This document shows positions 1,376 to 19,374 of a DNA stretch of 64,000 nt, piece by piece. The position numbers and the translations under genes are program-made. Source of the DNA: a virus. The stretch covers positions 1 through 64,000 of IMG/VR virus record IMGVR_UViG_3300022848_000777, one strand, 5' to 3'. Every line of letters begins with the position of its first letter. Positions within the stretch are counted from its first letter, which is position 1. The notes under the pieces were generated by a model that ran no database searches, had not been told where the DNA came from, and saw nothing but the letters and a program-made list of their open reading frames with translations.

Positions 1376-3661
1376 ATGGGAAATTTAATAAAAGAATGGT
1401 TTAAATCGGTAATTGTAGAATCTATTGATAAGAAAATAGTGGTATATTCTGGGAGATTCCAACCATTTCATTCAGGACACTATAAAACATACGAACATTT
1501 AATAAGTAAGTTCGGTAAAGAAAATGTCTTTATAGGCACATCAGACAAGACTGATAACTTAAAATCACCATTTAGTTTTAAAGAAAAAGAACAGATTATA
1601 AATAAGATGTTCAAAATACCAAAGTCTAAGATTGTCCAAGTCAAAAATCCATATGCACCCGCTGAAATTCTAAATAAATTCGATAAAGAAACAACTGCAT
1701 TTATAACTGTAGTTGGTGAAAAGGATAAGGGTAGACTTAAAGGTAAGTACTTTAAACCATACGAAGCTGGTGGTGAGATTGGATATGCAACTAACGGGTA
1801 TGTTTATGTAGCACCTAGATTATCTAATGTTAGTGGTACTGATGTTAGGAATATGTTATCAAAAGGTGATGATGCTACTAAGATTTCAAATTTCAGATCA
1901 ATATATAAGAATTTTGATAAAAAAATATATGATCTGATTACTTCAAAGTTATCAAATTTATATAATGAAATAATTGATGAATTTATATATAAAGTAAAAT
2001 TGGCAGATATCATCAAAGAGGCATCTACAATACCCGTAAGCGGAAAATCATTAGTAGATGATGGGCCAGGATTTGTTCATGGTAATTTTAAAACATACAC
2101 ATCAGAGGGTGATGCAGCAGCAGCTGCTCTTGGTTGGGAAGTTATAAATTACTTAATGGATGGTGATATGATGGAAGAGTTTAATACAGTTTATCCAAAC
2201 GGCCCTGGTCGATATCAAGTATCATATTTCCCATCGGGAAAGGCAGGCTTAAAAGCACAGTCAATTAGATATGGTGATAATTTCAAAGGAACTAAGGCTT
2301 ACAAAATGTGGGCAAAGCATATTACAAAAGTGGCAACTGTAGTTGGGTATAAGTTAGTTGATTTCTTAGATGCTGATGATTCAATCGAAAGTTCTAAAAA
2401 TCAACCAGTAAAAGAAAAAACACCAAAACAGAATATGAATGAGGGTATTATTAACGAAGGTGGTGCATACGGTCATATGAATCACCCATTTGATATCCAA
2501 ATGAATTTAACTTTTGATGATTTAAGACAAATAATAAATAAAGCATTAAATGGTAACTTAAAATTAGCTAGAGAAAAAACCGATGGTCAAGCTCTAGCAA
2601 TATCATGGAGAGATGATAAAGGGTTGATCGCAGCAAGAAACAAAGGTCATTTAAAAAATAGTGGTGAAAATGCATTAGATATAAGTGGTGTGGCATCTAA
2701 ATTTGAAGGTCGTGGTGAGTTATCGAAAGCATATAACTTTGCGATGAATGATTTGAATGATGCAATAAAGAGCCTATCTGCGAAACAACGAGATATGATA
2801 TTTATGCAAGGTAAATCTTTTATGAATTTAGAAGTGATATACCCCACATCAGTAAACGTTATACCTTATAATAATGCACTATTGGTATTCCATAACAGCA
2901 CTGAATACAATGATGATGGTGTGGCAATTGGTGCAAACCAACCAGCAGCAAGAGTATTATCGGATATGATTAAGGAAGTAAACAAAGATGTCCAATCTAA
3001 TTATAAGATTCAGGGACCGCCAGTAGTAGAATTACCAAAGAGTCAAGATTTATCTAAACTTCAATCTAAATTTGATTCACAACTTAATAAACTTCAAAAG
3101 GAATTTGAACTAAAAGGATCGCAGGGAGTTGCGGATTACCATCAAGCTTGGTGGGAAGCTTGGGTTGATAAGAATTCACCTAAATCTTTAGATAATCGCA
3201 CAAAAATGGGATTGGTAAAGAGATGGGCTTTTAATGATAAATCATTTAGATTAGATACTAAAAATCTAAAAGATAACACTGTGTTAGATTGGGCTAAAGT
3301 TACTGATAAGACTGATAAGGATAAGTTAGCAAAAATAAATATCAAGAAATTTGAAGATATATTCTTAGGTGTTGGTGCAGAGGTACTATCCTTTATGGGT
3401 TCTGTATTGGCTGTTAATCCAGATGCAGCAGTTCGTACTATGAAAGCGAGATTAGATCAAACAATAAAGGATGTTAGAAAATCAGGAGATTCCAAAAAAA
3501 TAGAAAAGCTGAAATTGGAATTGGAACGGTTGGCCGCAATTGGTGGTAAAGATAAAATAGTACCCAATGAGGGAATTGTTTTTGTGTATAAGGATAATAC
3601 TTATAAGTTAACAGGTGCATTCGCTTCACTTAACCAGATTGTCGGTTTAATGTATTATTAA
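1376..3661 (+). CDS. Nucleotidylyltransferase (NadM/NMNAT-like) fused to a ligase-like adenylyltransferase domain
   Basis: 761 residues. Residues ~20-190 form a cytidylyltransferase-like fold: VVYSGRFQPFHSGH carries the HxGH nucleotide-binding motif near residue 35, and SGTDVRNML matches the later ST/SxTxxR-type motif. The C-terminal half looks like a covalent nucleotidyltransferase (DNA/RNA ligase superfamily): REKTDGQALA gives motif I KxDG (~residue 400), AARNKGHLK a motif Ia-like Arg, FMNLEVIYP resembles motif III, ALLVFHN motif IIIa, NEGIVFVYKD motif IV (EGxV) and YKLTGAF motif V. A middle region (~215-340) is unrecognised. Seen: the motifs. Inferred: a two-enzyme protein acting in nucleotide/NAD or nucleic-acid end metabolism. 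Linker segments MNEGIINEGG resemble prohead-protease sites, so it may be packaged. Similar fused proteins occur in marine T4-like phages. Confidence 0.7.
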   Translation: MGNLIKEWFKSVIVESIDKKIVVYSGRFQPFHSGHYKTYEHLISKFGKENVFIGTSDKTDNLKSPFSFKEKEQIINKMFKIPKSKIVQVKNPYAPAEILNKFDKETTAFITVVGEKDKGRLKGKYFKPYEAGGEIGYATNGYVYVAPRLSNVSGTDVRNMLSKGDDATKISNFRSIYKNFDKKIYDLITSKLSNLYNEIIDEFIYKVKLADIIKEASTIPVSGKSLVDDGPGFVHGNFKTYTSEGDAAAAALGWEVINYLMDGDMMEEFNTVYPNGPGRYQVSYFPSGKAGLKAQSIRYGDNFKGTKAYKMWAKHITKVATVVGYKLVDFLDADDSIESSKNQPVKEKTPKQNMNEGIINEGGAYGHMNHPFDIQMNLTFDDLRQIINKALNGNLKLAREKTDGQALAISWRDDKGLIAARNKGHLKNSGENALDISGVASKFEGRGELSKAYNFAMNDLNDAIKSLSAKQRDMIFMQGKSFMNLEVIYPTSVNVIPYNNALLVFHNSTEYNDDGVAIGANQPAARVLSDMIKEVNKDVQSNYKIQGPPVVELPKSQDLSKLQSKFDSQLNKLQKEFELKGSQGVADYHQAWWEAWVDKNSPKSLDNRTKMGLVKRWAFNDKSFRLDTKNLKDNTVLDWAKVTDKTDKDKLAKINIKKFEDIFLGVGAEVLSFMGSVLAVNPDAAVRTMKARLDQTIKDVRKSGDSKKIEKLKLELERLAAIGGKDKIVPNEGIVFVYKDNTYKLTGAFASLNQIVGLMYY

Positions 3662-3752: not shown

Positions 3753-4355
3753 ATGACAAACAATAAATTAAAAAATATCCAAGCCATCAAAGAGATGTTA
3801 GATGGTCAACATCGAACGCAGACAAAAAATAATGTTGGTTTTAGAGATATCGAATTTCAAAAACGTGAAGTTGGTGACATTTGGGAAGATGTGAATGGGG
3901 ATCAATGGGAGCAAAAATCAGGCTTCAAAGTAAAAGTTGGTAAGTTGTCAGATAAGAGAAAAGAAATGCGAACTTTTTCAAAATGTAATAAGGAAGTATG
4001 TGATTGTACAGATCCAGGCAAAGCTGACCTAAAGATGAAATCTAGCCACGGTATGTGTTTAGAATGTGCAACTGATATGGAACATCTTCTTAAATTAAAT
4101 GGTGAGTATGATGAGTATGAACGTAATCGTGTATTGGAAAACGCAAAAGTGTGGCTACGAAATGCAGAGATAGAAAAAAATGTTCTAATAAGTACTCTTA
4201 AATCGCAGTTTATTAATGAAGATGGTAGTATTGAGGAATGGGATGGTTTGAATCCTGAGCAAATTGAACGACAAATTGAAAAAGGTTTTGATGATTTTAA
4301 AAATAACTTTATAAAGCAGTTAGAGGGACCTAAAAATGAAAAGGTTATTACGTAG
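3753..4355 (+). CDS. Hypothetical protein with a cysteine cluster
   Basis: 200 residues, predicted soluble. A Cys-rich stretch in the middle (SKCNKEVCDCTDPG, then HGMCLECATDME) supplies five to six cysteines spaced like a small zinc site. The C-terminal half is charged and probably helical. I do not recognise the family. It overlaps the next gene by 20 nt, so the two are translationally linked. It sits between candidate internal virion proteins and small membrane proteins; a morphogenesis or lysis-timing role would be speculation. Confidence 0.6.
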   Translation: MTNNKLKNIQAIKEMLDGQHRTQTKNNVGFRDIEFQKREVGDIWEDVNGDQWEQKSGFKVKVGKLSDKRKEMRTFSKCNKEVCDCTDPGKADLKMKSSHGMCLECATDMEHLLKLNGEYDEYERNRVLENAKVWLRNAEIEKNVLISTLKSQFINEDGSIEEWDGLNPEQIERQIEKGFDDFKNNFIKQLEGPKNEKVIT

Positions 4356-4701
4356 AATTGGTATTTTAGTAAAACACCTATTTAGTGACACTAATTCAAT
4401 AAATGAGAAATCAATTGTTGGGTTTTTGGCATTTGTTATGATGATATTTACATTAATTCTTGACATGGTAACTGGATTAATGGGGCGAGAGTTTCCAATA
4501 CATGAATTCGTTTATGACGGATTCTTATATATATGTATAGGTGCGTTAGGTATCGCATCGGTGGATAAGATATTCAGAAGGTCAGGCCCAACAAATGATA
4601 ACTTTGATATTGATGATGAATTTGATATGGAAGATGATCATACTAACGAATGTCATTGCGATATGCCACCAAAGAAATGCCATTGCCATAACCATAATTA
4701 A
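4336..4701 (+). CDS. Small two-TM membrane protein with Cys/His tail (holin candidate)
   Basis: 121 residues. Two hydrophobic segments (~residues 29-50, GFLAFVMMIFTLILDMV; ~65-82, GFLYICIGALGIASV) are separated by a short loop. They are followed by an acidic linker and a C-terminal tail rich in Cys and His (HTNECHCDMPPKKCHCHNHN), a likely metal-binding end. Size, two membrane spans and charged tail fit a class II-like holin; the Cys/His tail is unusual for one. It begins inside the previous gene. The possible spanin-like pair lies 1.5 kb downstream. Holin function is inferred from topology only. Confidence 0.5.
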   Translation: MKRLLRRIGILVKHLFSDTNSINEKSIVGFLAFVMMIFTLILDMVTGLMGREFPIHEFVYDGFLYICIGALGIASVDKIFRRSGPTNDNFDIDDEFDMEDDHTNECHCDMPPKKCHCHNHN

Positions 4702-4711
4702 GGAAATTAAA

Positions 4712-5386
4712 ATGAAAATAAAATTAATAGAATTATTAGGTAAGGAAAATACCAGACTTAATAAAAAAGTAAAAAAAGAATTAGATGCATACCTTAAAGG
4801 CATACCAGTTAACTCTGCAAATTATCAATACGCTGTTATGGTTATGATAGTGGCCGCTGCAAATGATTCAAACTTCCACTCACAGGCGAAGAAATTCCCA
4901 TCATTATTTCCTAAAGCAAAATCCCATAAATCTCAAGGTGCTGAATTTGATTCATTAATAAAGGATCGGGGAATTGAAATCGCTAAATGGGCCAAGTGGG
5001 ATTTAAATACAATCATAGATGCATTTGCATTTTTCACTAATATGAACATTGGTGGTGGTTTTGGAAACAAACTAAAAACTCTAAAGGTGGCTGTTGAAGA
5101 ATCGGTCAATGAAGATAATTCAGATACATATTTCAGATCATTCGCATCAGCAGTTGAATATGCTAGAACATCAACAGAAAAACGTGGGTTTGAAATCGAT
5201 GAAGATGATTGGCAAACACAGATAGCATTGGGTGGTAAGTATAATAGAGGTAGACCTTCAATTGGAAAAACACATACATTTGGTATTTCATTAAGTAAGA
5301 ATAAAAAACCCCAAAGAAAATCACTAAGTATATCAGTATTCGGTATGGCTAGTGGTAACTTTGAACTAACTCATTATATAAATTAA
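4712..5386 (+). CDS. Candidate internal virion protein with CTS-like N-terminus
   Basis: Start chosen at ATG 4712, preceded by AAGGAAATTAAA, rather than an upstream in-frame ATG inside the previous gene; 224 residues. The N-terminus MKIKLIELLGKEN matches a short amphipathic leader repeated on several genes here. A linker EESVNEDNSD (~residue 130) splits the protein. The C-terminal ~90 residues form a compact conserved-looking domain (YARTSTEKRGFEIDEDDW; KTHTFGISLSKNKKPQRKSL; ending ELTHYIN) of a kind I associate with T4-like marine phages, function unknown. Inference: packaged and cut by the gp21-like protease. Eight nucleotides separate it from the next gene, suggesting cotranscription. Confidence 0.6.
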   Translation: MKIKLIELLGKENTRLNKKVKKELDAYLKGIPVNSANYQYAVMVMIVAAANDSNFHSQAKKFPSLFPKAKSHKSQGAEFDSLIKDRGIEIAKWAKWDLNTIIDAFAFFTNMNIGGGFGNKLKTLKVAVEESVNEDNSDTYFRSFASAVEYARTSTEKRGFEIDEDDWQTQIALGGKYNRGRPSIGKTHTFGISLSKNKKPQRKSLSISVFGMASGNFELTHYIN

Positions 5387-5393
5387 GGAAAAT

Positions 5394-6131
5394 ATGAACC
5401 TGACTAAATTAATATCAGAAATTATGAATGAAAGTAATAAATTTGATTCAGATACTACACCTATAAAAGAATCATCCATCAAAACAATCAATATGTTATT
5501 CAAAAACAAAGGGATGAAGGATGCTATCAGAAAAGAAAAGGTTGATCAAATTCGAAAAGCAATCGAAAGTGAGGGTATTAGTACCAAAAACGTGAGTGAT
5601 GATGAAATTTTGACAATAGCAAAAGAACTTAATGAAGTTGCTAATAAAAGAAGATTAAAAGAATCTGTATATACGAATCAGACTGGATTAAAAACTGCAA
5701 TGCTGGGTGAGCCAAAACTTAATCGTTTATTAAAGGCTTCTACTGATTCGTGGGCTAGGCGTTCTGATGTCAAAGTGTTCAAAGAAAAAAGATTCTTCAT
5801 ATTTACAGATGGTAAGCGTGAAATGGTAATAACGCATAGTGATGGTGATTTCAAAGTAATGAAAAAGTTGGGTAGAATAAGCAAAGTTACCAAACGACTT
5901 TATAATGAATTAGCTAATGAATCCACTGACATCCAATCTGTGCTACTCAATCCCAAAGGGGATAAGTTTGTTGTATCTGAAAGAGATAATACCGTAGCAG
6001 GAAATCTAGGTGGATTTACGATGTATATACTAAGCAAATCGGGAAATAATAAAGTAGTGGGATCATTACCATCACTTAAAGAGGCAATTTCTCATGGTAA
6101 AATTAATGGATTTACTAAAAAAATAAAGTAA
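5394..6131 (+). CDS. Candidate internal virion protein, hypothetical
   Basis: 245 residues, soluble and Lys-rich. It starts MNLTKLISEIMNESN, again the short hydrophobic/Glu leader seen on neighbouring genes, and is preceded by AAGGAAAAT. A leader-like segment recurs internally (IAKELNEVANK, then RLKESV). The C-terminal ~150 residues contain a beta-rich part (KRFFIFTDGKREMVITHSDG) and end GFTKKIK. No family recognised. Position directly after another leader-bearing gene suggests a set of packaged proteins. The function is unknown; assignment to the virion is inference from the leader. Confidence 0.55.
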   Translation: MNLTKLISEIMNESNKFDSDTTPIKESSIKTINMLFKNKGMKDAIRKEKVDQIRKAIESEGISTKNVSDDEILTIAKELNEVANKRRLKESVYTNQTGLKTAMLGEPKLNRLLKASTDSWARRSDVKVFKEKRFFIFTDGKREMVITHSDGDFKVMKKLGRISKVTKRLYNELANESTDIQSVLLNPKGDKFVVSERDNTVAGNLGGFTMYILSKSGNNKVVGSLPSLKEAISHGKINGFTKKIK

Positions 6132-6937: not shown

Positions 6938-7774
6938 ATGAATAAACCTATAAAAAGTATAAATCAATTAATAAAAGATGAGTACACTAAATGTGCAGCT
7001 GATCCAGTATATTTCTTTAAGAAATATTGTTATATCCAACATCCAACACGTGGGAAGATTTTATTCGATACCTTCGATTTCCAAGATGAAACTTTAGAAG
7101 ATTTTAATAATTTCAGATTTAATGTGATATTAAAATCAAGACAGTTGGGTATATCAACACTAACAGCAGGTTACGCATTATGGTTAATGTTATTTAAAGA
7201 AGATCAAAATATATTGGTTATAGCAACAACTCAAGATGTGGCCAAAAACCTTATCACTAAGGTTAAGTATATGCATGATAACTGCCCTAGTTGGTTGAGG
7301 TTAGATACTGAGGAAGCAAACAAACTATCATTAAGATTTGTAAATGGTTCAACAATTAAAGCCGTATCAAGTACAGGAACAGCGGGTCGATCAGAGGCAC
7401 TATCATTATTGATCATTGATGAGGCTGCATTTATTCAAAAAGTAGATGATATTTGGGCTTCTGCACAATCTACACTTTCCACTGGGGGTAGTGCTATCGT
7501 ACTTTCCACACCAAATGGTGTTGATAACTTCTTTCATAGCACATGGTTAAAATCAGAAGAGGGTGCCGCATGGAATGGAATACGATTGCATTGGACTAGG
7601 CATCCAGAAAGAAATCAAAAATGGAGAGATGAGCAATCCGCATTGCTTGGTGATGCAATGGCAGCTCAGGAATGTGATTGTTTGTGGGGGGAATCTATGG
7701 TTACGGTACGTGATACTGAAACGGAAAATATCATAAACGTATCACTTTCAGATTTGTATAATAATTTATATTAA
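6938..7774 (+). CDS. 17: Terminase large subunit, N-extein plus 31-residue N-intein
   Basis: 278 residues. Residues 1-247 are the ATPase half of a T4 gp17-type terminase: a Walker A-like region at LKSRQLGIST, Walker B at LLIIDEAAF (~residue 163), and the coupling motif at VLSTPNG. The protein stops shortly after a Cys at residue 248 (nt 7679), which begins an intein block A: CLWGESMVTVRD. Only 31 intein residues are present before the stop. The rest of the intein and the nuclease half are in the gene at 8545. The product should join by protein trans-splicing to give about 528 residues. It drives DNA packaging at the portal. Fracture and inteins are seen directly; splicing is inference. Confidence 0.9.
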   Translation: MNKPIKSINQLIKDEYTKCAADPVYFFKKYCYIQHPTRGKILFDTFDFQDETLEDFNNFRFNVILKSRQLGISTLTAGYALWLMLFKEDQNILVIATTQDVAKNLITKVKYMHDNCPSWLRLDTEEANKLSLRFVNGSTIKAVSSTGTAGRSEALSLLIIDEAAFIQKVDDIWASAQSTLSTGGSAIVLSTPNGVDNFFHSTWLKSEEGAAWNGIRLHWTRHPERNQKWRDEQSALLGDAMAAQECDCLWGESMVTVRDTETENIINVSLSDLYNNLY

Positions 7775-7777
7775 TTA

Positions 7778-7785
7778 TACTTATA
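7778..7785 (+). promoter_or_regulatory. Late-type promoter variant TACTTATA before endonuclease gene
   Basis: TACTTATA followed by TA lies 24 nt before the start of the free-standing endonuclease. The same variant precedes the two other endonuclease genes in the window. Confidence 0.45.
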
Positions 7786-7808
7786 TACAAGAGTGTGAAT
7801 GTAAACGG

Positions 7809-8552
7809 ATGTTATATATGGGGTATGTAAAAGATGGGTGGGATAAAATTAAAGATGAATTATCAAATATTGATGAGTTTTATACCATTAAGCAAACTAT
7901 ACATTTATTAAATACGGATTATTATTATAAAAATTATTTTGGTAGGGCTAGGAATCGCACTATGATAAAACGTAATCCTAAATTATACAAGTCCATATAT
8001 GAACATACTGATATTTTAGAAACGACATTTAAAAAATATAATAAATACAAAGGTTGGTATAATTTCAAATACCGTATGGTATTTTTAGTTGATAATGGTG
8101 GTGATATTAACACTTTAAAGTGTGAGTGTGGTCGTACATATAATTGGACTAAATATTGTAGATTCTGCCCAAATCCTAAAAAAACATGGTTGGGTAAAAC
8201 ACATACAGATGTAACTAAAAAAATACAACGAATAAGTACTTTACAATACTTATCAAAAACCAATGGTCAATTAACACCTAGATATAATATCAATTCAATA
8301 CCAATCATAGAAGCAAAAGCTAAAGAATTAGGAATAACTGATTTACAGCATGCCGAAAATGGTGGAGAATTCCACATCAAAGATCTTGGTTATTGGGTGG
8401 ATGGTTATAGTAAAGAAAAAAACATAGTAATAGAATATGATGAACGTCATCATTTCAGAAATGATAAGATAAAAGTGAAAGATATTCAAAGACAAAACGA
8501 AATCGAAACCCATCTTAATTGTAAATTTATAAGGATACGTTGTAATGGATAA
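7809..8552 (+). CDS. Free-standing Vsr-like homing endonuclease between terminase halves
   Basis: 247 residues. A zinc-binding module near residue 100 (LKCECGRTYNWTKYCRFC) is followed by a nuclease domain: SIPIIEAKAKELG, QHAENGGEFHI, WVDGYSKEKNIVIEYDERHH and a C-terminal LNCKFIRIR. The D..E.D..HH pattern in this domain matches the Vsr-like EDxHD homing endonucleases described with fractured phage genes. It is nearly identical in pattern to the polymerase-associated enzyme at 54188 and to a fossil at 61626. Its final 8 bases overlap the start of the C-intein gene. Expected role: cutting unfractured terminase alleles so that the cassette spreads. Confidence 0.8.
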   Translation: MLYMGYVKDGWDKIKDELSNIDEFYTIKQTIHLLNTDYYYKNYFGRARNRTMIKRNPKLYKSIYEHTDILETTFKKYNKYKGWYNFKYRMVFLVDNGGDINTLKCECGRTYNWTKYCRFCPNPKKTWLGKTHTDVTKKIQRISTLQYLSKTNGQLTPRYNINSIPIIEAKAKELGITDLQHAENGGEFHIKDLGYWVDGYSKEKNIVIEYDERHHFRNDKIKVKDIQRQNEIETHLNCKFIRIRCNG

Positions 8553-9732
8553 TCATATATTAAGACATAATCATAAATATGAAATACTAACACCATCGGG
8601 ATATCAATCATTCGCTGGGATTCGTAAGATCTCTAAAGATGTAATATACACCATTATATTATCTAATAATAAAACAATAAAATGTTCAGATAATCACCCA
8701 TTTATTATTAACACTGATATTATCCATTCCAATAAATTAAAAGTTGGTGATATATTAGATGGTGTTGATGATACCATAATTACGATTGTTGATATTAAGA
8801 AAACGATGGGAACTTTGAATTTATTTGATGTCGTTGATGTTAATGGTGGTAATTTATTTAATGTTGATGGTATAATTTCACATAATTGTGATTTCATCAC
8901 ATCGGGTTATGGTGTTGTCGATGGTTCTATATTGGAGTGGTATAAAGAGAATCATGTTGTAGATCCATTAGAAGAACGTGGTTTCGATGGTAATTATTGG
9001 TTGTGGAAATATCCAGATTATGATAAAAATTACATCGTTGTGGCCGATGTCGCGCGAGGTGATGGTAAGGATTTTTCAACATTCCATGTTTTCGATGTAG
9101 AAACTGTAGAGCAGGTTGCTGAATACAAAGGTAAGATAGAAACAAAACCTTTTGGTGAGATGTTAGTGGCCGTCGCTATTGAGTGGAATAATGCAATGTT
9201 GGTAATAGAAAACGCCAATGTTGGTTGGGCTGCGATACAACCCGCAATCGATAGACATTATGAAAACCTATATTATTCATATAAAGATTTTGGATATGTT
9301 GATGATGAAGTTCATCTACAAAGTGCCTATGATATGGCAGATAAATCCAAAATGGTTCCTGGATTCTCAATGACAACTAGGACACGACCTTTGGTTATAT
9401 CAAAACTTGATACATATATGAGAGAAAAAGTGCCGATAATTCACTCAATTAGACTTATAAATGAATTATTTGTATTTGTTTGGATGGGTTCTAAGGCAAT
9501 TGCTCGTAATGGGCATAATGATGATTTAGTAATGGCATTTTCTACAGCTTTATGGGTGAGGGATACCGCACTTAGACTTAGACAAAAGGGTATTGATTTA
9601 AATAGAAGTGCAATACAACATACTACAAAATCAAATACATTCTATAGTAACACCCAACGAGCTCAATCCGACAAGTACTGGAATATGAATATAGGTGGAA
9701 AGCATAGTGAAAATATAAAATGGTTGCTGTAA
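8545..9732 (+). CDS. 17: Terminase large subunit, 114-residue C-intein plus C-extein nuclease
   Basis: 395 residues. Residues 1-114 are a C-intein: block B-like CSDNHPF, KVGDIL, and the terminal block NLFDVVDVNG...DGIISHN ending in His-Asn. The C-extein begins at Cys115 (nt 8887, CDFITSG). It is the RNase H-like nuclease half: YIVVADVARGDGKDFSTFHV (first Asp), VIENANVGW (Glu) and NGHNDDLVMAF (Asp pair). An N-intein of ~30 residues and a C-intein above 100 is the unusual split seen in AceL-TerL-type inteins. The ATG lies within the last 8 bases of the endonuclease gene. Confidence 0.9.
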   Translation: MDNHILRHNHKYEILTPSGYQSFAGIRKISKDVIYTIILSNNKTIKCSDNHPFIINTDIIHSNKLKVGDILDGVDDTIITIVDIKKTMGTLNLFDVVDVNGGNLFNVDGIISHNCDFITSGYGVVDGSILEWYKENHVVDPLEERGFDGNYWLWKYPDYDKNYIVVADVARGDGKDFSTFHVFDVETVEQVAEYKGKIETKPFGEMLVAVAIEWNNAMLVIENANVGWAAIQPAIDRHYENLYYSYKDFGYVDDEVHLQSAYDMADKSKMVPGFSMTTRTRPLVISKLDTYMREKVPIIHSIRLINELFVFVWMGSKAIARNGHNDDLVMAFSTALWVRDTALRLRQKGIDLNRSAIQHTTKSNTFYSNTQRAQSDKYWNMNIGGKHSENIKWLL

Positions 9733-13415: not shown

Positions 13416-14045
13416 ATGAGTGAATTATTAATAGACACAATACCATTTAAATTATCTAAGCAGGATTTGAATGAAGCTAAATCCAATAACAATGGTAGGT
13501 TCATCGTACAGGGTGTTATCCAACGAGCCGAAGCTGAAAACCAAAATGGTAGAATATATCCTAAAACACTTCTTGCTAGAGAGGCTAAGAACTATGCCGC
13601 TAAAGAGATAAAAGAAGCTAGGGCATATGGTGAGTTAGACCATCCAGAAACATCGGTTGTCGAGCTTAAAAACACATCACACATCATTAGAGAAGTTTGG
13701 TGGGAAGGTAATGACCTTATGGGTAAAGTTGAGATATTAAAAACACCATCTGGTAATATTCTAATGGAATTATTAAAAGCACAATGTACCGTTGGTATAT
13801 CATCAAGAGGTATGGGTTCGGTGAAAGAATCAGCAAATGGTAAAACTGTAACGGTAGAGGATGATTTCAATTTAATATGTTGGGATTTCGTATCAAACCC
13901 ATCAACACATGGGGCATTCTTAAAACCAACCAATGAATCGGTAAATGAATCGGTTAAATCAACTAAAAAAATAAATAACTATTCAAACATAGATAATATT
14001 GTAAGAGATATTATATGTGAAGTAAATGGAGTGTGTGGAATATGA
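13416..14045 (+). CDS. 21: Prohead core protease (gp21-like, S21 family)
   Basis: 209 residues. Motifs of the herpes/T4-type prohead serine protease are clear: NGRIYPKTLL, the catalytic His in AYGELDHPET (~residue 73), the catalytic Ser in CTVGISSRGMGS (~residue 130), and the trailing DFVSNPSTHGAF. The C-terminal tail contains NESVNESVKSTKK, itself like the cleavage-type linkers in neighbouring proteins, so self-processing is plausible. It matures the capsid by cutting scaffold, capsid protein and internal proteins after x-x-Glu sites. Its TGA overlaps the next start (ATGA). Confidence 0.9.
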   Translation: MSELLIDTIPFKLSKQDLNEAKSNNNGRFIVQGVIQRAEAENQNGRIYPKTLLAREAKNYAAKEIKEARAYGELDHPETSVVELKNTSHIIREVWWEGNDLMGKVEILKTPSGNILMELLKAQCTVGISSRGMGSVKESANGKTVTVEDDFNLICWDFVSNPSTHGAFLKPTNESVNESVKSTKKINNYSNIDNIVRDIICEVNGVCGI

Positions 14046-16183
14046 AATTAATAGATATGCTAAATAGTAAAAAGAGTCAGAAGCTAACTCTATTAGAAGA
14101 ACAAGCTTTACATAATTTCGAAATGGGGCATGTATATTCAAACCCATATCATACTGCATTTGTAAAAGAAGCTGATACGCCACTTAAATTTAAAGTTGGT
14201 GATTACATTATACAAAAAACATCAACAGGTGGCTCAGGGGGTTATGTGATATCTAAACACCCATCACTGGGTTATAGGTTGGCAGATCAATGGGGTGGTA
14301 CTGATAAGAAGTACTTCAAAGAAAAAGGATTCAAAAAAGATGCCGCTAAATCCAAAAAAGTACAATCATTTCCAAAGGTTATGGCTTTAATTAAATCTAA
14401 AGAATTAACAACAACTAATAAATTGGGCGAATCGATTACTGAGGGTAAGTATGATTCAATACTAGATAAAATCGCTGGTATTGTAAAGAATAGTAAATCG
14501 TTTATGAGTATTGGTGCTGAATTAAAAAAGAATGGTATAAAGTATGATTTTATGACGGCAGATGCACCAATGCCTGCTGCTATGTACACACTCAAAAACC
14601 CAAAAATAGTAATTCTTAATAAGAAATACGTATCAGGTGCAGAACGAGAAGTTGGTGATATCGCAATCGGTCTAATGGAGTCTATTAATGAAGATGCAAG
14701 TCACGAAGCACAGGGAATATCGCATTATACAGGAATGAGAGCTACTGCTGTACAGAAATTCATTGATGATAATAAATTAAATGCTAGAAAGTTACTTTCA
14801 TATGTAACTCGTAATACTGATGGTGCTCGTACAAAAGTGATAACTGCGATATCAGGAAAACCAAATAATCCAATGGCTAAAAAAGTAATGAAAGTTTTTA
14901 AAGAATCTATTAATGAAGATGCAAAGAAAGTTTGGAAGGATGGTAATAATCTTTACGTAGATAGTGACTTCGTTAATATGAGTAAGGGTAATTTACCTAA
15001 TTCAGAATTAAAACATTTGGGAATGGGTGATTTCTTTTTAGATACACCAGACGGTAAGATTAATTTTAATAGAAGTGGTGATAAACTTCCAGGTATGAGT
15101 GGTAGAAGTCATAAGATGTCAGACTCTAATGGTGGTAAGCTGATAGCACAATTAATTAAAAAAATGGGTGCAAAAATAGTTAACGAATCGAAAGTATATA
15201 ATTGTGGTACACCTTCACTGATGGATTTACTTAGAGAGCAAACTGAATATGAAAAGTTCTTCCAATCAGCACTTAAAAAGTTTGATGTGAAATCTCCTGA
15301 TGAAATCGAAGGTGATAAAAAGAAAGAGTTCTTTGATTATGTAGATAAGAACTGGGATGCTGGTGAGAATGAAACTGATGTTGATGAGGCTAAGACCGCT
15401 AAAACTAAGAAAGATTCAAAATCATCTAAGAAATCTAAAAGTGATTATTCATTAGATGGGATGTTTGGTGATGTAAAGAAGCAACTAAAAGGAATCACAG
15501 CAATAAAGAAAGAATCGGTAAATGAAGGAGTGAAACGATTCTATCAACAAGATGGTATTGGTAAAGCAAAATATACTATATCGTATCACGACGGAAAATC
15601 AAAACATAATGATGGTGGTGACTTCTATGGTATCAGAATATTTAAGAATAAAAAAGAATTAGAAACGTTTAGAAGTGAACTTTTGAAAAAAGGATATAGA
15701 GCGGATAGTGGATTTAAAAAAGAATCGACGAATCAGAATATCAGATTTGAAAGTATGGATTTGTATGGGACTGGTCGATTGGTTGAATTCAATCTGAATC
15801 TTAGTGATTTGGATTTTGGACTTTCATTAATATCAGGAATCGTCGGAGTACCATTGGCTGCACTTTTAGCAATGCATGCAGAGGATGGTATGAAATCAAT
15901 ATCTGCGTTACTAAAGAAAAAGAGTAAAAATAAAGCATCAGTATCAGAATCATCGTATAATATACCATCATTAGTATCTCTACTTTCAGAAAAGAAATAT
16001 GATATCGGTATGGGTCATAAAGGAAATGGTGTTACTGTATGGAATAAATCAGAAGAGGTAAGTGGTGATTATAAGACAATAGCACACATTACTGATAGTG
16101 GTAAAATTACATACCATGATAAGGCATTACCATCTGATGTTAAGAAGACGATAGAAGCTGCAGCAACTAAAATGAAAAACTAA
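14042..16183 (+). CDS. Modular 713-residue protein, candidate protease-processed internal polyprotein
   Basis: Start ATG 14042 overlaps the protease stop (ATGA), preferred over a GTG 9 nt upstream. The N-terminus MKLIDMLNSKK is leader-like. The protein is a string of unlike small domains separated by short linkers: GESITEGKYD, MESINEDASH, KESINEDAKK, PSLMDLLREQTEYEKF, KESVNEGVKRF, KESTNQN and PSLVSLLSEKKYD. I/V-N/T-E fits the L/I-x-E rule for T4 gp21 cleavage, and two linkers repeat the leader pattern. One module (ALKKFDVKSP...KEFFDYVDKNW) is familiar from T4-like marine phages. One hydrophobic stretch occurs near residue 610. Inference: cut in the prohead into about seven peptides. Function of the pieces is unknown. 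Confidence 0.65.
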   Translation: MKLIDMLNSKKSQKLTLLEEQALHNFEMGHVYSNPYHTAFVKEADTPLKFKVGDYIIQKTSTGGSGGYVISKHPSLGYRLADQWGGTDKKYFKEKGFKKDAAKSKKVQSFPKVMALIKSKELTTTNKLGESITEGKYDSILDKIAGIVKNSKSFMSIGAELKKNGIKYDFMTADAPMPAAMYTLKNPKIVILNKKYVSGAEREVGDIAIGLMESINEDASHEAQGISHYTGMRATAVQKFIDDNKLNARKLLSYVTRNTDGARTKVITAISGKPNNPMAKKVMKVFKESINEDAKKVWKDGNNLYVDSDFVNMSKGNLPNSELKHLGMGDFFLDTPDGKINFNRSGDKLPGMSGRSHKMSDSNGGKLIAQLIKKMGAKIVNESKVYNCGTPSLMDLLREQTEYEKFFQSALKKFDVKSPDEIEGDKKKEFFDYVDKNWDAGENETDVDEAKTAKTKKDSKSSKKSKSDYSLDGMFGDVKKQLKGITAIKKESVNEGVKRFYQQDGIGKAKYTISYHDGKSKHNDGGDFYGIRIFKNKKELETFRSELLKKGYRADSGFKKESTNQNIRFESMDLYGTGRLVEFNLNLSDLDFGLSLISGIVGVPLAALLAMHAEDGMKSISALLKKKSKNKASVSESSYNIPSLVSLLSEKKYDIGMGHKGNGVTVWNKSEEVSGDYKTIAHITDSGKITYHDKALPSDVKKTIEAAATKMKN

Positions 16184-17760: not shown

Positions 17761-19374
17761 ATGGATATTTCAAAAATGTTAACAGAAGGTCGATCTCACC
17801 AAATGAGACTTACCGATGAGACAGCAGCTTTGGTTAAAAAATGGAAAGACACTGGACTTCTAGAAGAAATCGAAGATGATATAACAAGATCGGGTATGGC
17901 TACCCTGCTTGAAAATCAAGCGAAACAAATAGTAAAAGAAGCGTCCCAGACAGGTACTTCTACAAATTCAGAAGAATGGGCTGGTGTAGCACTTCCTTTA
18001 GTTCGTAGAATCTTTGATGAGATTGTAGCTAAGAACTTTGTATCAGTACAACCAATGAACCTACCATCAGGTCTAGTTTTTTATCTAGATTTTAAATATG
18101 GTACGAACCAACCTGGATTCGCAACAGGATCAGGAAAGGATTCACAAGAAGATTCAGTATTCGGTATTACCGATACTACTGGCGATCCATCTGGTGGTCT
18201 TTATGGGGCAGGTCGATTTGGTTACACAATCAATGATACTGACACAGTAATACAAGCATTAGGTGCTACACCTGCTACAAACGTATACGCTACTGGTTCA
18301 GTAGGTGAAGTTGATTATAACTACGATTCACAATTCTCAGCATCAAACACAGTAGGTTTGGGTGATGGTACAATTGCAACCGTAACAGTACCAACTGCAT
18401 CATTACCATCATTTGATTCAAAAGGTATTAGAGCATTTAGATTAACAGGTGTTACGGATCAATTCCCAGCATACACTAGATTGCAAGGCCCTAACGTTGT
18501 CTTTGTGGCAAAATCAGCAGCATTCGCATCTATTAAAGTTGTGTTCCACAAACAACCAACTGATACTTCTAGAGGCGATTTTGAAGCATCACCAACGTAT
18601 GATACTACACTTGACATTCCAGAATTGAATGTTGAAATGAAATCAGAACCAATTGTAGCTAAGACACGTAAGTTGAAAGCACAATGGACGCCTGAATTTG
18701 CACAAGATTTAAATGCTTATCATTCAATTGATGCAGAAGCTGAATTAACATCTATGTTATCAGAATACATTTCGCAAGAAATTGACTTTGAGATTTTAGA
18801 TATGTTGATTCAAGATGCTAAAACTACTGGTTACTGGTCAACGCAAGTTGGACGTGAGTGGACTGGAAACGGTTTTGGTGATTTCTCAACAACACAAGCA
18901 CAATCATCAGCATATACGCAACAAGCATGGTTCCAAACTTTGGGTACTGTAGTAGCGGGTGTTTCTAACAAGATTCACCAAAAAACATTAAGAGGTGGGG
19001 CTAACTTTATGGTCGTTTCTCCAGATGTTTCCACTATTATAGAATCTATCCCAGGTTACGCATCATCTGCGAACAATGGTGATTCTGAATACGCATTTGG
19101 TGTAACTCAAATTGGTTCACTTAATGGTCGATTCAAGGTTTACAAGAATCCTTATATGAAGGACAACGTTATTTTAATGGGTTATAGAGGAACGCAATTC
19201 CTTGAGACTGGTGCAGTTTACTCACCATACATTCCATTAATTATGACTCCACTTGTATACGATCCACAAAACTTCACCCCAAGAAAAGGTGTCATGACTC
19301 GTTACGCGAAGAAGATGTTGAGAGGTGAATTCTACGGAAAAGTTCTTGTTGACGGATTGCACAGAATTCAGTAA
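17761..19374 (+). CDS. 23: Major capsid protein (gp23-like)
   Basis: 537 residues, similar to T4 gp23 (521). Recognisable blocks: LLENQAKQIVKEASQ near residue 60, WAGVALPLVRRIFDEIVAKN, SVQPMNLPSGLVFYLDFKYG, RKLKAQWTPEFAQDLNAYHS and the C-terminal YAKKMLRGEFYGKVLVDGLH. By alignment to gp23, gp21 cleavage is expected after Glu60 (IVKE/ASQ), removing the N-terminal propeptide. A GGAG site (ACGGAG) precedes the start by 10 nt. It forms the HK97-fold capsid shell. An intrinsic terminator follows. Confidence 0.95.
   Translation: MDISKMLTEGRSHQMRLTDETAALVKKWKDTGLLEEIEDDITRSGMATLLENQAKQIVKEASQTGTSTNSEEWAGVALPLVRRIFDEIVAKNFVSVQPMNLPSGLVFYLDFKYGTNQPGFATGSGKDSQEDSVFGITDTTGDPSGGLYGAGRFGYTINDTDTVIQALGATPATNVYATGSVGEVDYNYDSQFSASNTVGLGDGTIATVTVPTASLPSFDSKGIRAFRLTGVTDQFPAYTRLQGPNVVFVAKSAAFASIKVVFHKQPTDTSRGDFEASPTYDTTLDIPELNVEMKSEPIVAKTRKLKAQWTPEFAQDLNAYHSIDAEAELTSMLSEYISQEIDFEILDMLIQDAKTTGYWSTQVGREWTGNGFGDFSTTQAQSSAYTQQAWFQTLGTVVAGVSNKIHQKTLRGGANFMVVSPDVSTIIESIPGYASSANNGDSEYAFGVTQIGSLNGRFKVYKNPYMKDNVILMGYRGTQFLETGAVYSPYIPLIMTPLVYDPQNFTPRKGVMTRYAKKMLRGEFYGKVLVDGLHRIQ

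Follow-up and report, generated by a model that had tools for sequence, protein, structure and literature searches.

A predicted head-cargo polyprotein of a T4-like phage, with exchangeable enzyme modules parted by prohead-protease-type sites

The gene described here most probably specifies a cargo polyprotein that a T4-like phage targets to its head and cuts with its prohead protease, a reading to which we give a probability of roughly 78%. The window, that is, the whole stretch of 64,000 nucleotides that was analysed, is part of a virus record of 174,750 bases and carries a T4-like head-gene cluster. At positions 1376-3661 it holds one open frame, which runs from an ATG at 1376 to a stop at 3661 and encodes 761 amino acids. 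The reading is built on the domains of this protein, their conserved motifs, the modularity of its relatives, recurrent sites, the leader, and the genomic context, and from these we infer the following course of packaging, cleavage, injection, enzymatic activity, and anti-defence action. The leader would carry the polyprotein chain into the prohead core, where, during head maturation, the S77 protease would cut after [LI]xE, taking off the leader and separating the NMNAT, DDGP, and RNA-ligase-fold modules. The freed modules would stay inside the head and, as T4 Alt and the internal proteins do, reach the host together with the DNA. Once there, the NMNAT might restore NAD+ and the ligase-fold module might act on RNA ends, with RNA repair as its most likely role, and defences that deplete NAD or cut tRNA would be countered before phage gene expression. 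Relatives place other enzymes in the same frame. The parts of the window protein are as follows, with a slash marking a predicted cut.

1376-1420, plus strand: predicted capsid-targeting leader MGNLIKEWFKSVIVE, predicted cut after E15 (IVE/S); leader form kept in relatives
1421-2020, plus strand, amino acids 16-215: module 1, NMNAT-like HIGH-superfamily adenylyltransferase; Pfam, PHROG, and PDB matches and motifs
2003-2020, plus strand: predicted prohead-protease site ADIIKE/AS at the border of modules 1 and 2; DDGP anchor statistics
2021-2458, plus strand, amino acids 216-361: module 2, the "DDGP" module, without assigned function; in about 90 relatives, in several module orders
2444-2458, plus strand: predicted prohead-protease site GIINE/GG at the border of modules 2 and 3; P3/P1 conservation in 94 contexts
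2459-3658, plus strand, amino acids 362-761: module 3 (C-domain), RNA-ligase-fold covalent nucleotidyltransferase-like domain; AlphaFold2 model, VIA-align, invariant motifs
2573-2587, plus strand, amino acids 400-404: motif I EKTDG with the predicted nucleophile Lys401; E-K-x-D-G invariant, intein point

The N-terminal domain had been called NMNAT-like, with an HxGH, in a preliminary description of this DNA, and the database comparisons agree. It matches CTP_transf_like of Pfam (1.3e-6) and a cytidyltransferase of PHROG (4.2e-17), and its top PDB sequence match is the NMNAT 2qjt (2.4e-6). Both motifs of NMNATs of the NadM/NadR type, HxGH and SGTxxR, are found: the former in GRFQPFHSGH (amino acids 26-35, nucleotides 1451-1480, with HSGH at 32-35) and the latter in VSGTDVR (amino acids 152-158, nucleotides 1829-1849, with SGTDVR at 153-158). 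Among relatives, the NMNAT module has SGTxxR in 92/92 cases, HxGH in 53/92, and a GxHH variant in the other 39/92. Carriers of this variant, of which GRFQPFGPHH is an example, include L149, L160, and L163; in these forms the substrate or activity of the module may be different.

In the C-terminal half, the preliminary description had recognised motifs I, III, IIIa, IV, and V of covalent nucleotidyltransferases, and all are present where it placed them: beyond EKTDG there follow NLEVI (within 483-490), LLVFHN (502-507), NEGIVF (731-736), and YKLTG (743-747). A motif Ia-like site that was absent from that list, AARNK, lies at amino acids 419-423. A set of 26 aligned homologues with 46-78% identity to the window shows no variation in E-K-x-D-G, R-N, the motif III Glu, F-H, E-G-x-V-F, or K-x-T-G. 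The motif-I lysine, the conservation of which had been set beforehand as the test of the assignment, is among these residues. A set of 23 sequences reaching down to 35% identity keeps the same motifs invariant, with the exception of F-H, conserved in at least 90%.

The ligase-type fold proposed earlier also holds up in structure prediction. The AlphaFold2 model of the C-domain has a mean pLDDT of 84.6 and a pTM of 0.77, with a long, mostly helical insert between motifs IIIa and IV. Foldseek found nothing below 0.001 for this model in the PDB; its best-ranked rows are almost without exception polynucleotide ligases, RNA ligases being in the majority. VIA-align, too, ranks RNA ligases first (Z of 8.2 for Naegleria, 8.0 for T4 Rnl1, 7.7 for Trypanosoma REL1, and 7.4 for both T4 Rnl2 and Trl1), with DNA ligases and capping enzymes below, and since a Z of about 8 is moderate, we put more weight on the fact that the fold, the order of the motifs, and their positions on predicted strands all agree. 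Scanned by itself against Pfam and PHROG, the C-domain fell into no credible family. Judged by the model, the domain combines the nucleotidyltransferase fold with K-x-D-G and motifs III, IIIa, and IV, as in the Rnl superfamily. Motif V of classical ligases reads K-x-K. Here, the first lysine is kept in YKLTG and the second is T in every homologue; because K-x-K is absent, we class the domain as an RNA-ligase-like fold and not as an RNA ligase, and the missing second lysine means that the module may not ligate.

Possibly, then, the ligase fold of the C-domain has lost its catalytic activity or been put to another use (as a binder, a core adaptor, or a protein- or RNA-adenylylating enzyme) and serves mainly as the conserved terminal module, which would be compatible with the polyprotein mechanism. 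The altered motif V and the helical insert that sets motifs IIIa and IV apart would fit this, as would the fact that the C-domain is the sole module common to all relatives, although this is so partly by construction, the domain having been the search query. Against it, K-x-D-G, R-N, the Glu of motif III, E-G of motif IV, and the first K of motif V are invariant across the diverse set, and in one relative (L040, about 3820-5000) an intein splits the ligase-like domain exactly between the motif-I K and TDG. Because invariant motifs and an intein site of this kind typify active catalytic centres, we favour an active centre and regard a dead or repurposed domain as rather unlikely.

The middle module gave a poor AlphaFold2 model (pLDDT, 60) and no usable fold match. 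Counted in the window ORF alone, [LI]xE[AGSD] occurs three times versus 1.5 expected, which is not significant (p about 0.2), and the case for a polyprotein therefore depends on the family. Two scans of viral contigs with the C-domain as the query yielded about 160 relatives, with open chains of up to 2003 amino acids in which the C-domain is C-terminal. The modules upstream of it vary and comprise NMNAT, DDGP, a tRNA nucleotidyltransferase (PHROG, 4.8e-62), a P-loop kinase with a weak polynucleotide-kinase match, HD, an HExxH peptidase-like module, and many unassigned segments. Crude cutting and clustering of the relatives gave 42 module clusters and 65 architectures, numbers that are only indicative because the largest cluster merges modules and many chains end at contig ends. 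The jumbo phage LR756500 encodes the C-domain separately, as a gene with a leader of its own (MKFLKSYEEFLNENLILE/GGSYGHLNHPFED, the start reading MKFLKSYEEFLNENLILE/GGSYGH). In a cultured phage, L168 3132-5855 is gp088 of Flavobacterium phage immuto, a protein of 907 amino acids annotated as NMNAT, with a nucleotidyltransferase-like start, an NMNAT-like centre, and a HEMIHH peptidase-like part, which contains the sequences EVVKE/GSS and VMAE/GRYD.

The sites recur at the borders of these modules. Complete relatives keep a short leader ending in LxE whatever their first module may be, with few exceptions (MGNLIKEWFKSVIVE and MNKLTKWLVESILTE are examples). Immediately ahead of the C-domain, 94/94 distinct 12-mers have L or I at P3 and 91/94 have E at P1, though the modules upstream are unrelated, and the DDGP module of relatives likewise follows an [LI]xE and a small residue. 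Counts from fixed anchors, as opposed to cut-defined modules, place a site no more than 20 amino acids upstream of the DDGP anchor in 52/56 unique windows, where about 4.5-7 would be expected. In a short window upstream of the anchor, a site was found for the C-domain in 53/54 unique windows, for HExxH in 8/8, for PRKKGQHRG in 10/13, for NMNAT in 32/52, for VGDT in 12/22, and for the kinase in 7/14, all of them above background. The cargo regions of 38 dereplicated relatives hold 105 [LI]xE[AGS] versus 43.5 in shuffles (2.4-fold; z of 9.7, z-scores overstating the evidence because related sequences are counted separately and are not phylogenetically independent). Kinship of the relatives affects the contrast with control letters less: when D, K, or Q replaces E in the motif, the counts in the same regions are at or slightly under chance. 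Inside the domains, [LI]xE is rarer than expected, with 33 versus 67 in the C-domain and 29 versus 50 in the NMNAT core. LR756508 shows no clear site at the last border before the C-domain. In a subclade (L116, L122, L124, L146, L150, L155, and L157), LLLM/GG replaces LLxE/GG at this position, where the chain may be uncut or cut elsewhere.

A candidate protease is encoded nearby. Downstream of the polyprotein gene lie genes for a T4-type terminase, a T4-type portal (1.1e-68), an S77 protease, an acidic scaffold-like protein, and gp23, two of which matter for the argument:

13416-14045, plus strand: S77 prohead core protease (gp21 family), the predicted processing enzyme; Pfam Peptidase_S77, 1.2e-31
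17761-19374, plus strand: major capsid protein gp23 with a predicted maturation site IVKE/AS after amino acid 60; Pfam Gp23, 3.4e-75

The S77 gene is present in 11/14 related records; the contigs of the other three end about 2.5 kb or less downstream of the polyprotein gene, short of the expected position of the protease. The gp23 site is kept as [VLI][KSD]E/[AS] at about residue 60 in 11/11 aligned relatives, with mostly V at P3 rather than L or I. This predicted site lies near the position of the maturation cut of T4 gp23, which removes 65 residues (PMC9958956). By portal, the nearest cultured relatives are Microcystis phage Mel-JY01 (52%) and Flavobacterium phage immuto (53%), and the gene order of Mel-JY01 matches, with an NMNAT/ligase gene, terminase, a portal-like gene, and protease. 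The terminase large-subunit gene of the window (6938-9732) is interrupted: its N-part (6938-7774) is followed by a homing-endonuclease-like ORF (7809-8552) and then by an ORF at 8545-9732, the start of which matches intein splicing domains (5.1e-5) ahead of the terminase C-part. On the other side of the polyprotein gene, a tail-fibre-like ORF (11-1315) has near-identical tandem repeats (NTFTSSYFIDSASFSSSIEELELWSGSLIIPDISAL).

An alternative would be a polyvalent-type virion protein, a multidomain effector that is injected uncut and in which [LI]xE is a mere linker or helix-end feature. Phage polyvalent proteins are multidomain and predicted to be injected (PMC5512222), and cleavage at the [LI]xE borders is in our case a prediction from sequence. 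However, the sites take the specific gp21 form, with L/I at P3 and E at P1 nearly fixed, show no enrichment with D, K, or Q at P1, and are depleted inside domains. The S77 protease, encoded in each related record that continues beyond the polyprotein gene, and the similar site at the capsid maturation position also speak against an uncut chain, which we consider improbable.

The preliminary description had suggested that NMNAT and ligase fold form one self-contained repair or modification enzyme. While the domain assignments stand, a single joint enzyme is probably wrong for this phage group, because head-protease-type sites part the modules, the middle is exchanged, and a jumbo phage has the C-domain on its own. 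A genuine two-domain enzyme, unpackaged and acting with both domains on one substrate in the infected cell, would gain some plausibility from cyanophage S-PM2, in which similar domains are fused in reverse order beside replication genes, hinting at functional coupling; given this opposite-order fusion, NMNAT and the ligase-like domain may after all be functionally linked. Yet variable, unrelated modules with sites at their borders lie between NMNAT and the C-domain, the C-domain is also found in a chain that lacks NMNAT, and the gene sits in a head-gene cluster, so that we judge such an enzyme very improbable. We prefer the head-cargo polyprotein because the gene lies upstream of the terminase, portal, S77 protease, and capsid genes, in the same order as in Mel-JY01, and because [LI]xE sites at the borders are joined by a conserved leader, a stand-alone C-domain gene with a leader, and a similar capsid site.

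Other ORFs of the window may encode head cargo as well:

4712-5386, plus strand: ORF from an ATG at 4712 (MKIKLIELLGKEN...), with an internal ESVNE/D site before its C-terminal module
5394-6131, plus strand: neighbouring ORF with the leader MNLTKLISEIMNE/S, candidate head cargo; site count
14042-16183, plus strand: second predicted cargo polyprotein, 713 amino acids from an ATG at 14042, adjoining the protease; sites and recurring segments

In L005 and L007, the C-terminal module of the first is encoded separately and carries a leader itself (MIKLKELL..., MIKLKDLLKE...). The second has three [LI]xE[AGSD] sites versus 0.7 expected (p about 0.03, uncorrected). The third has five versus 1.8 expected and four E[SG][IVL]xE sites; it looks like a second cargo polyprotein because its ESxxE-type sites are repeated and its segments recur elsewhere in related phages, in other contexts.

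As for what the cargo does, a role of the modules in RNA repair and NAD metabolism is, taken by itself, a tentative proposal that we put somewhat below even odds. The ligase-like fold, together with the tRNA nucleotidyltransferase and kinase of relatives, points to a mending of tRNA or other RNA that has been cleaved, and the presence of the latter two as co-cargo weakly favours RNA repair among the possible activities. The NMNAT module might restore NAD+, which several defences deplete; both phage RNA repair and NAD salvage have been discussed as counter-defence (PMC7824862, PMC9503650). For NAD capping, which the preliminary description had also raised, nothing specific in support was found. 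In this virus record, which is possibly incomplete, we found neither a nicotinamide phosphoribosyltransferase/NAPRTase partner nor an AAA_33 kinase partner. The record also encodes, outside the window, a separate Pfam RNA_ligase protein (G000 90797-91372; 4.2e-13). A cellular origin was considered and rejected: among 84,980 species genomes scanned, there were only seven matches, all on MAG-bin contigs of about 20 kb or smaller from unrelated taxa, and these look like stray phage contigs.

More generally, T4-like phages (nearest cultured host, Flavobacterium) might use prohead-protease-processed polyproteins as an exchangeable magazine, in which one leader brings in many enzymes that are cut apart in the head and supply the host at time zero with an NAD and tRNA/RNA repair kit; we hold this wider view at a little under even odds. 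If true, it would provide a DNA-virus counterpart of the polyproteins of RNA viruses, maturing inside the particle, and one targeting signal would bring several enzymes destined for injection into the head at a fixed ratio, with the maturation protease parting them. The cargo of uncultured phages would then be readable from sequence, since the sites would mark module borders, and early effectors that are injected could be listed in large number, most of them without assigned function and possibly directed against host defences. The cultured relatives immuto and Mel-JY01 offer a concrete test.

The individual modules have known counterparts. NadM-type NMNATs, which phages encode alone or with Nudix, share GRFQPFHxGH, SGTxxR, and the best PDB match 2qjt with module 1; no Nudix domain was recognised here, however, and many relatives carry GxHH. 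The C-domain resembles T4 RNA ligases 1 and 2, Naegleria RNA ligase, and Trl1 (Rnl) in fold and in motifs I, Ia, III, IIIa, and IV and the first K of motif V, but differs from this superfamily by KLT instead of KxK, by its large helical insert, and by the lack of a Pfam RNA-ligase match. The S-PM2 protein S-PM2d138, a DUF6267 (PF19782) domain (1.6e-111) fused to a C-terminal CTP_transf_like, likewise joins two similar domain types and has a K-x-D-G motif, and predicted structures suggest a remote match to the C-domain (BFVD, E of 2.4e-4). In contrast to the window protein, it has the reverse domain order and lies beside replication genes, and no leader or [LI]xE border was seen in it. The C-domain is not itself assigned to DUF6267, as no match was seen up to an E of 10 and hhalign with S-PM2d138 gave a probability of 0.3, which is no sequence-level link.

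For the polyprotein as a whole, the literature covered, mainly open access and without preprints, contained no description of prohead-protease-cut cargo polyproteins. The polyvalent proteins (Iyer et al. 2017, PMC5512222) also carry many disparate enzymatic domains per chain and are predicted to be injected; here, these are NMNAT and the ligase fold, with tRNA nucleotidyltransferase, kinase, and HD in relatives. No ART or MuF match was found among the proteins scanned with Pfam. Embedded zincin-like peptidases were proposed as the processors of polyvalent proteins, whereas the prohead protease is predicted to act in trans here; a Pfam scan of the window protein recognised no peptidase domain, and HEITH/HELVH motifs occur in some long relatives. 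In the Dar system of phage P1 (DarB), an N-terminal signal targets anti-restriction proteins to the head (PMC9024508), but these are separate proteins, and module-by-module cutting is not described in that paper. A close parallel is T4, in which gp21 takes short leaders off IPI-III and Alt (PMC5694885, PMC9958956, PMC7411985), its sites in Alt being ITE-6 and, near the C terminus, LTE-619 (PMC5694885). The window protein similarly has a short N-terminal leader with a gp21-type [LI]xE end, alongside an S77 protease and a matching capsid site, and head residence and ejection are predicted for it. T4, in contrast, has one effector per leader, whereas here a single leader serves several enzymes, which are parted by sites and exchanged as modules from phage to phage. 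In its predicted manner of working the polyprotein is like the T4 ejection proteins and in content like polyvalent proteins, with several exchangeable enzymes per leader on the capsid-cargo plan of T4.
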